A stretch of DNA of 33,599 nucleotides from Anaerolineae bacterium. Lineage in GTDB: Bacteria; Chloroflexota; Anaerolineae; JAAYZQ01. A program made the translations under genes and the position numbers. Below the pieces are notes generated by a model that was not told where the DNA came from, did not search any database, and saw only the letters and a list, made by a program, of their open reading frames with translations. Positions within the stretch are counted from its first letter, which is position 1. Each line of letters opens with the position of its first letter. This document shows, piece by piece, positions 12,802 through 18,533 of this stretch. Location: the NCBI GenBank assembly GCA_016926595.1, contig JAFGOG010000623.1, positions 1 to 33,599 of the forward strand, given 5' to 3'.

Positions 12802-14259
12802 TTATATAATGCGAAATGCGTCCACCAGGGTGCAGCGGCGCACCCGGGTAAAGTCTGTGACGCTGGTCAGACCCTCGCCGGTGGGGCTGGCGATGGAGAA
12901 CGAGGTAAACCCCTCGCCGCCAAAACCGAGGCCGGCCAGGCTGGGGCCGTTCTTGACAAAGATGCTGACGTTCATCTCGCGCGCCATGCGGCTCAGGATA
13001 TCCAGGTTCTTGGAGTGGATCGCCGCCGTGTGCCCCATGCCCTGTTCGACCACTTTGGCCAGGTCGATCGCCCGATCGGCATTGGGCACGCGTACCAGGG
13101 GCATGACTGGCATGAGCTGCTCGGTCCAGACCAGGGGGTGGTCGGCGTCGGTCTCGGCCAGCACCAGCCGGACCTCATTGCCAACGTTGACCCCGATCTC
13201 ACGCAGGATGACACTGGGCGACTTGCCGACGAACGCCTTGTTGATGACCCCGTGCTTGCCCGGGCCGTGATCCTCAGCCATGATGACCTTCATCAGGCGG
13301 CCAAGCTGCCATGGCGAGATCTCGACCGCGCCCCGGTGGAGCATGATCGCCTTCAGTTGATCGGCGATGGCGTCGACGGCGATGATCTCTTTTTCCAAGA
13401 CGCAGACGAGATTGTTGTCGAACGAAGCGCCTTTGACGATGTCCCGCGCCGCCTGCTCCAGGTCGGCGGTCTCGTCGACGACGACAGGCGGATTGCCAGG
13501 CCCGGCGCAGATCGCCTTCTTGCCCGAGTGCATGGCCTCACGGACCACACCCGGCCCGCCGGTGACGACCAGGAGACGGACAGCCGGATGGCGCATCAGG
13601 CGCTGCGCACTGTCGATGGTCGGCTCGACTGGGCAGGTGATCAGGTCAGGCGGGCCGCCGGCCCGCTGGATGGCCTGGTTGAGAACCTGCACGGTCTGCG
13701 CCGAGCACAGCTTGGCGCCGGGGTGGGCGTTAAAGACGACAGCGTTACCGGCGGAAACCATGCCGATCGCGTTGCACAAGATCGTGGATGTTGGATTGGT
13801 GCTGGGGGTAATGGCCCCGATGACGCCATAGGGCGCCCACTCGACCAGGGTCAACCCCCGGTCGCCGGTCCAGGCGCGGGCCTGGAGCAGCTCGGGACCC
13901 GGCGTGCGCTCGGCGACGAGAAGGTTCTTCTCGGTCTTGTCCTCAGGGCGGCCCATGCCGGTCTCTTGCCAGGCAGCTCGAGCCAGGAGGGGCGCGTTTT
14001 CCAGAGCGGCCTGGCGCATGGCGGCGATCAGGGCAGCTCGCCGCTCCAACGGCAAATCGGCAAGGCGCTTGAAGGCGACCGTTGCCGCCGCCATGGCAGC
14101 ATCGAGGTCAGGATAGACGCCATTCTGCCCGCTGGCCGTCCCGGCGGCAGGCGACGGCGGCGTGGATGCGGGCGCGGACGCGGGCGGTGCGCCAGCCGCG
14201 CCGCGCAGGTCGGCCACTACCCGTTCTACGATCTCGGCAATCCGTTTCTCATCGATCAC
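12802..14259 (-). CDS. Microcompartment CoA-acylating aldehyde dehydrogenase (EutE/PduP-like)
   Basis: The 485-residue protein starts at GTG 14259, behind GGAGGGTTGAGGGC. Residues 1-20 (MIDEKRIAEIVERVVADLRG) form an amphipathic helix, followed by an Ala/Pro/Ser linker to about residue 45. This is an encapsulation peptide as in PduP. The catalytic domain has the Rossmann part GVIGAITPSTNPTST, TGGPGVVREA, and SFDNNLVCVLEKE with the acyl-forming Cys286. That motif (PduP/EutE have SFDNNLPC) marks CoA-dependent aldehyde oxidation to acyl-CoA with NAD+. With DeoC encoded in the same operon, acetaldehyde is the likely substrate. The Pro usually before the Cys is Val. The gene lies 143 bases after the cyclase gene, with nothing identifiable in the gap. 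Confidence 0.93.
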   Translation of the reverse strand: MIDEKRIAEIVERVVADLRGAAGAPPASAPASTPPSPAAGTASGQNGVYPDLDAAMAAATVAFKRLADLPLERRAALIAAMRQAALENAPLLARAAWQETGMGRPEDKTEKNLLVAERTPGPELLQARAWTGDRGLTLVEWAPYGVIGAITPSTNPTSTILCNAIGMVSAGNAVVFNAHPGAKLCSAQTVQVLNQAIQRAGGPPDLITCPVEPTIDSAQRLMRHPAVRLLVVTGGPGVVREAMHSGKKAICAGPGNPPVVVDETADLEQAARDIVKGASFDNNLVCVLEKEIIAVDAIADQLKAIMLHRGAVEISPWQLGRLMKVIMAEDHGPGKHGVINKAFVGKSPSVILREIGVNVGNEVRLVLAETDADHPLVWTEQLMPVMPLVRVPNADRAIDLAKVVEQGMGHTAAIHSKNLDILSRMAREMNVSIFVKNGPSLAGLGFGGEGFTSFSIASPTGEGLTSVTDFTRVRRCTLVDAFRII

Positions 14260-14402
14260 GACAAATGCCCTCAACCCTCCGTAGCAGCGACTTTTGCCCC
14301 CCGTGAGTCCCTGGCCAAGCAACAACCCATCCGCGACCGCCAGGGGGTCCCGTCAGAACCGGCACCCCGCCTCGCGCAACCGGCTCTTTGAAAGAGACAG
14401 AA

Positions 14403-16801: not shown

Positions 16802-17679
16802 TATGCGGCCTGAGCCTGCTGCAAGATCTTGACGCTGGCGCTGGCGCCGATGCGCGTCGCGCCGGCGGCGATCATGGTCTGGGCCTCCTCGAAACTGCGG
16901 ATGCCGCCAGCCGCCTTGACCCCAATCTCCGGCCCGACTGTGCGGCGCATCAACTCCACATCGTGGGCCGTGGCCCCACCGGGGCCAAATCCGGTGCTGG
17001 TTTTGACATAGTCGGCGCCGGCGGCCTTGGCCAGCTCACAGGCCTTTACCTTTTCTTCGTCGGCCAGCAGCGCCGCCTCGATGATCACTTTGAGCAGCGC
17101 ACCGCCAGCGTGGCAGGTGCGCGCCACGGTAGCAATGTCCCGCTCAACCAGGGTGTAATCCTTGCTCTTGAGGGCGCCGATGTTGATGACCATGTCCACC
17201 TCGGTCGCGCCGTCATCGAGCGCCTGCTGAGCCTCGTAGGCCTTGACCTCGGGCGGCGTCGCCCCCAGCGGAAAACCGACGACGGCGCAGACGCCAACCG
17301 GCGAGCCTTTGAGCAACTGGACACACAGACGGACGTTGGCTGGGTTGACGCAAACGGTGGCAAAGCCGTACTTGCGCGCCTCGTAACAGAGCTGGGCGAT
17401 CTGATCCTGGGACGCGTCGGGCTTGAGGAGGGTGTGGTCGATCATCGCCGCAACCTCAGGCCCGACGTCGACGCCGCCGAGGGTGGAGCTCAGGCGTGAG
17501 GCGCCGGCATTGACGACCTGGAGCACCTTATCCTGGTACTGTTGGGTGCACTGGTCTTCGCACTCGGCGCACTGGCCAGCCTGGCTATCCTGCGCGCTGC
17601 CGGACTCGGCGAGCAGCAGAAGCACCTCGCGGGTGATCCTCTCGACCAGGCGCTCGACTGTGGCTGCGTCGTAACTCAC
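16801..17679 (-). CDS. deoC: Deoxyribose-phosphate aldolase with encapsulation peptide
   Basis: The 292-residue protein starts at GTG 17679, overlapping the isomerase stop by four bases (GTGA), with AAGAGG upstream. Residues 1-24 (MSYDAATVERLVERITREVL and on) form an amphipathic helix of encapsulation-peptide type. Residues 25-65 are a linker containing C37, C40 and C44 (CAECEDQC), absent from ordinary DeoC. The class I aldolase barrel follows: IDHTLLKPDAS, TEVDMVINIGAL, Schiff-base K226 in YVKTSTGFGPGG and the proton-relay K255 in GVKAAGG. The reaction is 2-deoxyribose-5-phosphate to glyceraldehyde-3-phosphate plus acetaldehyde. With the aldehyde dehydrogenase it forms the probable core of the microcompartment pathway. 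Confidence 0.95.
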   Translation of the reverse strand: MSYDAATVERLVERITREVLLLLAESGSAQDSQAGQCAECEDQCTQQYQDKVLQVVNAGASRLSSTLGGVDVGPEVAAMIDHTLLKPDASQDQIAQLCYEARKYGFATVCVNPANVRLCVQLLKGSPVGVCAVVGFPLGATPPEVKAYEAQQALDDGATEVDMVINIGALKSKDYTLVERDIATVARTCHAGGALLKVIIEAALLADEEKVKACELAKAAGADYVKTSTGFGPGGATAHDVELMRRTVGPEIGVKAAGGIRSFEEAQTMIAAGATRIGASASVKILQQAQAA

Positions 17680-18533
17680 TCTGACCTCTTGAAGCGCTTT
17701 TCGATTTCCGTGATCTTGTCCACCCGGCGGGAGTGCCGGCCGCCGCCAAAATCGGTGGACAGCCACGTCTTGACAATATCACGGGCCAGGCTGCGGCCCA
17801 GCAACAAGCCGCCCAAGGTCAATACGTTGGCGTCGTTATGCTCGCGCGAGTTGACGGCCGTGGCATGGTCATAGCACATCGCCGCCCGCACGCCCGGCAC
17901 CTTGTTGGCGGCCATACATGAGCCGATGCCAGCACCGTCGACGACGATGCCCCGCCAGGCGCGCCCCTCGGCCACCAGGCGGGCGACTGCGTAGGCGAAA
18001 TCAGGATAATCCACGGCATCCGGGCCGAACGTGCCGCAATCGACCACCTGGTACCCCAGCTCGCCGATGTAGGCCTTCAGGTCCTCTTTCATAACCAGGC
18101 CGCCGTGGTCGGCCCCTAGGGCGACCAGGCGACCAGCCGGAGCCGCGACGGGGAGGTTTTTTGCTTCGCTCCCTGGCCTAGCCGCCAGGGCAGGCGGAAT
18201 GACACCGGAGCGGCTGGCCTCGATCGCGGCGCCCGGCATGGGCTCGATCTGCACGCGGCGCTCAGAAGCCGCCTGGCGGGCCAGCGGCGTGACCAGCGCA
18301 TCGGCGGCCACCGGCAGGCGGCCGCCGCGCGGTACGGCCAGCACGTCGGCCTCGGTGACGGTGGGGCGCGCAGAACCCGCACCCGCGTCGTTGATAGCAA
18401 CCCGATCACCAGAGAGCCCGTCAGAGGTCCCCCCTCCCTGCTGAGGAGAAGAGGACTCTGTAGGGGTTTGGCCCAGCGTGCGCAGGACAACCCGCCGGAC
18501 GATAGCCTTTACCTCGTCTTCAGAGAGCGCCAT
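17676..18533 (-). CDS. RpiB/LacAB-family sugar-phosphate isomerase with encapsulation peptide
   Basis: The protein has 285 residues; RpiB proper has about 150. Residues 1-21 (ALSEDEVKAIVRRVVLRTLG) are an amphipathic encapsulation-type helix. Residues 22-58 are a Gly/Ser-rich linker. Residues 59-100 (VTEADVLAV...ALVTPLARQAASERRVQIE) resemble a short module seen beside several BMC enzymes. A second linker ends at about 134, and the isomerase domain is 136-285: ALGADHGGLVMKEDL, IVVDGAGIGSCMAANK, SREHNDANVLTLGG and GRHSRRVDKI. The Cys that acts as base in E. coli RpiB (CGTGIG) is replaced by D199, with a Cys at 206. His232 and the Arg residues that bind phosphate remain. It probably interconverts pentose or related sugar phosphates; the exact substrate is open. 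Confidence 0.88.
   Translation of the reverse strand: MALSEDEVKAIVRRVVLRTLGQTPTESSSPQQGGGTSDGLSGDRVAINDAGAGSARPTVTEADVLAVPRGGRLPVAADALVTPLARQAASERRVQIEPMPGAAIEASRSGVIPPALAARPGSEAKNLPVAAPAGRLVALGADHGGLVMKEDLKAYIGELGYQVVDCGTFGPDAVDYPDFAYAVARLVAEGRAWRGIVVDGAGIGSCMAANKVPGVRAAMCYDHATAVNSREHNDANVLTLGGLLLGRSLARDIVKTWLSTDFGGGRHSRRVDKITEIEKRFKRSE

Follow-up and report, generated by a model that had tools for sequence, protein, structure and literature searches.

An SPU-class bacterial microcompartment locus from an Anaerolineae-like Chloroflexota genome, with an RpiB-like protein altered at its catalytic positions

Bacterial microcompartments (BMCs) of the sugar-phosphate (SPU) class are defined by genes for deoxyribose-phosphate aldolase (DeoC) and RpiB beside shell genes, and the corresponding families, PF01791 and PF02502, are common to all SPU subtypes (Sutter 2021, PMC8217296; Axen 2014, PMC4207490). 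More than 280 such loci have been reported from 26 phyla, with Anaerolineae among the hosts of subtype SPU6, and their predicted role is the catabolism of DNA sugars, in which acetaldehyde is converted to acetyl-CoA (PMC8217296; PMC4207490). The locus described here lies in a stretch of 33,599 nucleotides from an Anaerolineae bacterium (contig JAFGOG010000623.1 of assembly GCA_016926595.1), which is referred to as the window and to which all positions refer. A minus-strand directon at 12802-18533 encodes an RpiB-like protein, DeoC, a CcmP-like tandem shell protein (BMC-T), a hexameric shell protein (BMC-H), a pentameric vertex protein (BMC-P) and an EutE/PduP-type aldehyde dehydrogenase (ALDH). 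The window holds PF01791-type and PF02502-type enzymes together with PF00936 and PF03319 shell genes, and by this gene content the locus is a member of the already known SPU class. An earlier, sequence-only reading of this DNA had assigned it to that class, and the defining pair of DeoC and RpiB beside shell genes bears the assignment out.

Quite probably, the window carries the main locus for a metabolosome of the SPU class, in an Anaerolineae-like member of the Chloroflexota. In such an organelle, DeoC would cleave 2-deoxyribose-5-phosphate inside the shell into acetaldehyde and glyceraldehyde-3-phosphate; the acetaldehyde would be held in the shell and converted by the ALDH to acetyl-CoA and NADH, and the substrate and glyceraldehyde-3-phosphate would pass through the gated CcmP-like BMC-T. 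As judged from kin, the shell would be completed by one more BMC-T and two more BMC-P encoded elsewhere, and in those relatives that have both, a PduS-type protein and a BMC-T with a cysteine pore would allow NADH to be re-oxidised across the shell. The ALDH may also be supplied by a class II aldolase. The conversion of acetaldehyde to acetyl-CoA, proposed also by the sequence-only reading, is the published prediction and would fit the motifs of DeoC and ALDH, which are intact: the Schiff-base lysine regions of the window DeoC align with a solved deoxyribose-phosphate aldolase, and the DNNxxC motif is present in 58 of the 62 ALDH open reading frames (ORFs) of the cluster, that of the window included. 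The features of the locus are as follows, the likely true starts of DeoC (17679), BMC-T (about 16740) and ALDH (about 14259) having been read from the sequence.

17676..18533, minus strand: RpiB-like protein, 285 amino acids, with an N-terminal helix (encapsulation-peptide-like), a PduM/EutQ/EutT-like module and a LacAB_rpiB domain in which Asp199 and Ala201 replace the catalytic Cys and Thr
18234..18365, minus strand: module of the RpiB-like protein, residues 57-100, 'VTEADV...ALVTPLARQAASERRVQI'; residues 61-100 have high confidence (pLDDT) in an AlphaFold2 (AF2) model; some relatives have the module two or three times
17937..17939, minus strand: codon of Asp199, at the catalytic Cys position of E. 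coli RpiB
16801..17679, minus strand: DeoC (deoxyribose-phosphate aldolase), 292 amino acids, starting at a GTG that overlaps the RpiB stop, with an N-terminal amphipathic extension and a Cys-rich linker
16102..16782 (ORF), minus strand: BMC-T, CcmP-like tandem shell protein, likely start about 16740
15764..16069, minus strand: BMC-H, hexameric shell protein (Pfam BMC)
15468..15758, minus strand: BMC-P, pentameric vertex protein (Pfam EutN_CcmL)
14403..15455, minus strand: response-regulator receiver with a class III nucleotidyl cyclase; metal-site Asp kept, Lys of 'GTxxKFxGD' replaced by Thr
12802..14325 (ORF), minus strand: EutE/PduP-type CoA-acylating ALDH, likely start about 14259, with an N-terminal extension

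The gene identities rest on matches above the curated Pfam cut-offs, for the enzymes (LacAB_rpiB 1e-50, DeoC 5.3e-14, Aldedh 5.9e-35) as well as for the shell proteins (BMC 2e-06 in BMC-T and 7.4e-31 in BMC-H, EutN_CcmL 1.5e-27 in BMC-P), so that the shell proteins are recognised by the PF00936 and PF03319 models for BMC proteins. NCBIfam models were likewise exceeded by DeoC (equivalog TIGR00126, 278 bits against a cut-off of 117), the RpiB-like protein (equivalog TIGR01120, 151.4 against 138.65), BMC-T (CcmP, NF053796, 345.6 against 340) and the ALDH (NF011927, 641 against 403). These matches confirm the six minus-strand genes named by the sequence-only reading at their positions; it had overlooked the receiver/cyclase gene inside the operon (14403-15455). 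The published criterion for the aldehyde dehydrogenase (AldDH) of SPU loci is the acetaldehyde branch on the EUT1 or EUT3 side, and the window ALDH was assessed by its NF011927 score only. Pfam and NCBIfam revealed no glycyl-radical or diol-dehydratase cargo among the operon proteins, and none of the matches to the seven proteins of the operon is a phosphotransacylase (PTAC) or an alcohol dehydrogenase, both of which belong to a complete metabolosome core.

A scan with BMC-T found 135 relatives, of which 80 loci were kept; a good part of their contigs end inside the locus. By record title, 62 of these loci belong to Chloroflexota or to classes or orders taken as such, nine to Gemmatimonadota and nine to others, including Neomarinimicrobiota, Holophagae, Phycisphaerae and four cyanobacteria, the latter (L042, L070, L072, L075) retrieved through BMC-T only. 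The nearest relatives are titled Anaerolineae or Chloroflexi, in agreement with the earlier description of the genome as Chloroflexota-like. RpiB was matched in 58 of the 80 loci, DeoC in 63, BMC-H in 63, BMC-P in 68 and ALDH in 61, and the order RpiB-DeoC-BMC-T-BMC-H-BMC-P-ALDH is complete in 45, interspersed genes allowed.

The locus shares with the SPU loci of Axen 2014 and Sutter 2021 the combination of DeoC, RpiB and AldDH with shell genes and the occurrence in Anaerolineae, and PduS, found in relatives, is also described for some SPU loci. Unlike these, the window operon includes a cyclase gene, and its closest relatives keep the main locus and further shell genes apart. Sutter 2021 ties SPU6, whose BMC-T(dp) is of the EUT3/SPU6 clade, to Anaerolineae; the window BMC-T is instead CcmP-like, which corresponds to the published clade of HO, MIC3, SPU2 and SPU3 besides carboxysomes, and this may point to the HO/MIC3/SPU2/SPU3 clade over SPU6. 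The closest solved structures to the window BMC-T are two CcmP, followed by HO-5816, the CcmP-like BMC-T of the HO BMC of Haliangium ochraceum. The HO type I satellite, with two BMC-P and an aldolase, is matched in four of the five closest relatives here; the window differs from the HO BMC in having DeoC and RpiB within the main locus. A carboxysome, suggested by the CcmP label, was rejected, the cargo being DeoC, RpiB and ALDH and the name CcmP a sequence-family label.

The RpiB-like protein departs from the known enzymes at the residues on which catalysis depends. When aligned with RpiB of E. coli and with two RpiB of the Cys type encoded by relatives, the window protein has Asp for the catalytic Cys and Ala for its Thr/Ser partner. 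Asp is found at the Cys site in 56 of the 56 related loci covering it (two of the 58 do not reach it), Ala at the Thr/Ser site in 55 of the 56 (Val in one), and an RpiB-DeoC fusion in Phycisphaerae (L080) retains the Asp. Among listed homologues, Asp and Ala each occur in 120 of 120, these being the best 120 of 7999 sorted by similarity and not an independent sample. LacA, too, has Asp at this position. The corresponding Cys of RpiB is the proposed base, with Glu75 of M. tuberculosis as the exception (PMC3755991). At the position of this Glu the window protein has Ser, so that it carries neither the catalytic Cys nor the M. tuberculosis-type Glu. In family, fold, ring-opening His and phosphate-site Arg pattern it resembles the RpiB/LacAB proteins of E. 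coli, C. thermocellum and M. tuberculosis, and differs from them by the Asp, the Ala and the extra N-terminal helix and module. All 30 Foldseek matches of the AF2 model at E <=0.001 were RpiB/LacAB structures; the model (mean pLDDT 60.7 over its whole length) is usable for the module and the N-terminal helix, and its isomerase domain is too poor to give the geometry of the active site.

In a sample from two phyla, the replacement follows the genomic context. RpiB-family loci were collected from the phyla to which two relatives (G006 and G008) belong, with 81 and 61 genomes searched, taking the 30 best-scoring places from each, one per genome, together with L117 of G008. Among these 61 loci, six are of the Asp/Ala type, 49 have Cys and six have Gly; these last carry Glu where the window protein has Ser and are presumably of the M. 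tuberculosis type. Asp stands beside DeoC in all six, and none of the 55 loci without DeoC next door carries it; three of the Asp loci (L109, L116, L117) come from genomes known beforehand, so that the new part comprises 58 loci, three with Asp and 55 without. The protein keeps the sugar-phosphate-binding pattern without the usual proton-transfer residues, and would be either an Asp-based isomerase or a protein with another task next to DeoC.

The first of these alternatives, for which we see a little less than an even chance, is that of an ordinary ribose-5-phosphate isomerase using Asp in place of Cys, in an organelle that degrades both the ribose and the deoxyribose of nucleic acids; it is otherwise compatible with the metabolosome proposed above. 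Asp could serve as the base. All 57 loci that cover the ring-opening His retain it, RHxRR and other RpiB-family positions that align with E. coli RpiB are invariant in a 40-sequence alignment, and the window protein passes the rpiB equivalog model. Furthermore, neither RpiA nor another RpiB was found in G008, a metagenome-assembled genome titled chromosome, which would leave the Asp-type protein as its only recognisable isomerase and speaks for isomerase activity there. Against this stand the replacement of both the Cys and its Thr/Ser partner, the Thr-to-Ala change alone causing an approximately 20-fold loss in LacAB (PMC3755991), and the presence of RpiA, which covers the housekeeping step, in eight of the nine genomes (from 12 examined) where the Asp-type protein is the sole RpiB-family member. 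Moreover, 2-deoxyribose-5-phosphate, the substrate of DeoC, has no 2-hydroxyl and can by established chemistry not be isomerised at C2.

Tentatively, and with the chances rather against it, the RpiB of SPU loci may be considered as something other than a conventional ribose-5-phosphate isomerase: with its phosphate-site pattern and ring-opening His retained, it may convert 2-deoxyribose-5-phosphate from the furanose to the open-chain form and pass this on to DeoC. A role in organising assembly is also conceivable, with the N-terminal helix and the PduM/EutQ-like modules, of which there are one to three, as the contact points. Sutter 2021 treats the SPU RpiB as a ribose-5-phosphate isomerase (PMC8217296), and Axen 2014 describes some RpiB as unspecific (PMC4207490). 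A search of the open-licence literature turned up no report of an Asp/Ala RpiB with a PduM/EutQ-like module in microcompartments, and nothing combining 'bacterial microcompartment', 'RpiB' and 'aspartate'.

The module itself is a short 'TPxAR' element alike to PduM, EutQ and EutT, but here fused to RpiB. By a strict motif, which misses variants, it occurs once in 44 of 55 RpiB ORFs, twice in one, three times in two and not at all in eight. The ORFs with tandem modules measure 405-410 amino acids (two copies in L029, three in L057 and L065); in L066 the RpiB gene is split into two ORFs. The three-copy protein of L065 scores 46.6 bits against PF15953 (PDU_like; cut-off 27), with TIGR02536 of NCBIfam and the PduM, EutT and EutQ models matched below cut-off, and the single copy of the window lies below the PduM cut-offs (PF15953, 17.1 against 27 bits; NF011957, 14.1 against 179 bits). 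When a module profile built from 166 sequences was run against 13 E. coli proteins and 260 shuffled ones, EutQ (E-value 0.0042) ranked first and EutT (0.025) second; both E-values are weak, the best shuffle reaching 0.36. A model of the E3-binding domain gave 19.2 bits, below its cut-off of 23.7, and no relative of the module was recognisable in the 50 Foldseek rows shown, in which matched ranges were not displayed. PduM has been reported to link core and shell (PMC9132943), and part of this core-shell model has been disputed (PMC12108088).

Several observations weigh against the proposed metabolosome. Because its RpiB lacks the catalytic residues of the known RpiB enzymes, the ribose-5-phosphate isomerase step assumed for SPU organelles is in question. 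The genes beyond the window are assigned by kinship only, from searches of relatives' genomes, in assemblies of unknown completeness. In eight such genomes, the classical phosphopentomutase DeoB is found above cut-off in one and at any score in three, a weak point of the route from nucleosides to deoxyribose-5-phosphate; pyrimidine-nucleoside phosphorylase, present in all eight, speaks for the proposal. PTAC is encoded in two of the eight, on contigs other than that of the locus, and the recycling of CoA is a further weak point. The simple reading also has against it a class II aldolase that belongs with this organelle and that ends, in some relatives, in a tail resembling an encapsulation peptide. 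Lastly, as isolated peptides, the extensions of RpiB (equalled by 1293 of 2000 shuffles) and ALDH (359) and the tails of two class II aldolases (115 and 269) are not clearly amphipathic. The N-terminal extension of DeoC, which only 28 of 2000 shuffles equalled, is unusually so. Being clear for DeoC only, amphipathicity was rejected as proof of encapsulation peptides.

Some further features of these genes and genomes can be recorded. A second DeoC was found above cut-off in five of the eight genomes, where the microcompartment DeoC would thus be an additional one. The PTAC domain lies inside open frames of about 790 codons (contig C122 of G001 and C6 of G002), possibly as part of a fusion protein. 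In the window DeoC, the aldolase domain is joined to the N-terminal extension by a linker rich in Cys (residues 37-44). Of 63 DeoC ORFs, 62 had an anchor for this comparison, and 15 of these 62 show CxxC(x2-4)C; several class II aldolases have a similar CxxCxxC before their end.

It is improbable, though conceivable, that the class II aldolase handles the main input of the organelle, splitting the phosphate of a deoxy- or 5-deoxy-sugar in the manner of PVM-type organelles or the dihydroxyacetone phosphate (DHAP) shunt, with DeoC being secondary. The DHAP shunt does employ a class II aldolase (PMC12632272), four of the five closest genomes have the aldolase gene beside their additional shell genes, and encapsulation-like C-terminal tails were judged by eye to be present in nine of 12 class II aldolases, those of G001 and G002 ending in an encapsulation-like helix. 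DeoC is found in 63 of the 80 relatives' loci and the class II aldolase in nine, which argues against a secondary role of DeoC, and the family models do not name the substrate of the class II aldolase, the listed matches being below cut-off.

The sequence-only reading had further described the shell as close to a minimal polyhedral one. The window has one gene per shell type, and its ORFs of at least 70 amino acids hold no further shell homologue. Its closest relatives, five loci with at least 80% BMC-T identity (L001, L002, L005, L006, L025), were followed into their genomes with PF00936 and PF03319, and all five encode one extra tandem BMC-T and two extra BMC-P outside the main locus. In G001, G002, G003 and G004 a PduS-type protein, a BMC-T(s), two BMC-P and a class II aldolase are encoded together, in G004 on the contig of the main locus; in G005 the PduS-type protein, BMC-T(s) and one BMC-P share a stretch with other genes between them, the second BMC-P is on another contig, and no class II aldolase was seen within the retrieved stretches. 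A PduS-type gene thus accompanies extra shell genes in five of five closest genomes and a class II aldolase in four of five, and BMC-T(s) occurs inside the locus stretch itself in 51 of the 80 relatives. With these further shell genes in the relatives, the minimal-shell reading falls: it is very improbable that the three shell genes of the window suffice for the organelle, and by kinship the shell is probably not a stand-alone minimal one and completed from genes elsewhere.

The PduS-type protein and the BMC-T(s) of the relatives resemble an established redox pair. Two of the five PduS-type proteins carry Complex1_51K, SLBB, Fer4_17 and RnfC_N in Pfam, the same four domains as described for PduS (PMC6325248); NCBIfam places these two under RnfC, and for the remaining three the identification is by sequence alone. 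Aligning 56 BMC-T(s), of which the 80 loci supplied 51 and the closest relatives' genomes five, gives Gln as the pore residue in 48, Cys in six and His in one, with one gap. The six with Cys are those of the five closest genomes and L003; all six have a PduS-type gene in the same stretch and show the CPGKY motif published for PduT (PMC6325248). PduS was matched in only three of the 80 stretches (L003, L004, L006). The likeness to the PduS/PduT pair, in domains and pore motif (PMC6325248), thus concerns relatives and not the window, and unlike that system, cobalamin enzymes were not seen within the stretches read.

Full-length homologues of the receiver/cyclase gene lie between BMC-P and ALDH in L001, L005 and L006, but L002 and L025 have none there; others are found in five loci of the class II aldolase type. 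A literature search brought up no title on cyclases or response regulators in BMC loci. Class III adenylyl cyclases have two metal-binding Asp, a substrate-selecting Lys and an Asn/Arg pair. The metal-site Asp residues are kept. The Lys is Thr in the window and is replaced by Gln in L001, L005 and L006, whereas the five loci of the class II aldolase type retain it; Asn and Arg are present in the window cyclase, and that of L006 also lacks the Arg. Since the Lys is replaced and the Arg lost in L006, the activity of the putative cyclase and its nucleotide are uncertain. A phospho-signal may act on the operon or the organelle.

The operon is flanked by two further genes.

18558..19115, minus strand: signal peptidase I, 24 nt upstream of RpiB
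11963..12796, minus strand: tetratricopeptide-repeat (TPR) lipoprotein-like, following ALDH downstream after 5 nt; likewise placed in L001 and L002

The order of transcription is signal peptidase I, RpiB-like protein, DeoC, BMC-T, BMC-H, BMC-P, receiver/class III cyclase, ALDH and TPR lipoprotein-like protein, with -4 to 77 nt between listed ORFs. As the gaps are short and the RpiB and DeoC ORFs overlap by 4 nt (GTGA), the genes of the directon are likely on one transcript. A promoter/terminator scan (4 where shuffles average 1.7, and 8 where they average 6.3) was given no weight. A signal peptidase gene is present somewhere in 35 of the 80 relatives' stretches, sometimes duplicated, and in 23 it immediately precedes RpiB in the same orientation. 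A gene of the metallo-beta-lactamase fold stands between BMC-H and BMC-P in L001, L002, L040, L069, L073 and L076, and an inorganic pyrophosphatase-type gene occurs in L003, L004, L028, L034, L040 and L073 (Pfam on one representative of each). A sister type of locus (L030, L031, L041, L043, L044) consists of BMC-T(dp), BMC-P, BMC-T(s), ALDH and class II aldolase, with extra response-regulator/kinase genes around the cyclase and no BMC-H, RpiB or DeoC match in the stretch; in the two examined genomes of this type (L030, L043), an Asp-type RpiB with DeoC is located elsewhere.

For shell engineering, these comparisons advise caution, as the locus alone probably does not encode the complete shell. 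For the SPU class, the loss of the known catalytic residues from RpiB, tied to the DeoC context throughout the sample, makes the assumption of an isomerase in these organelles testable.

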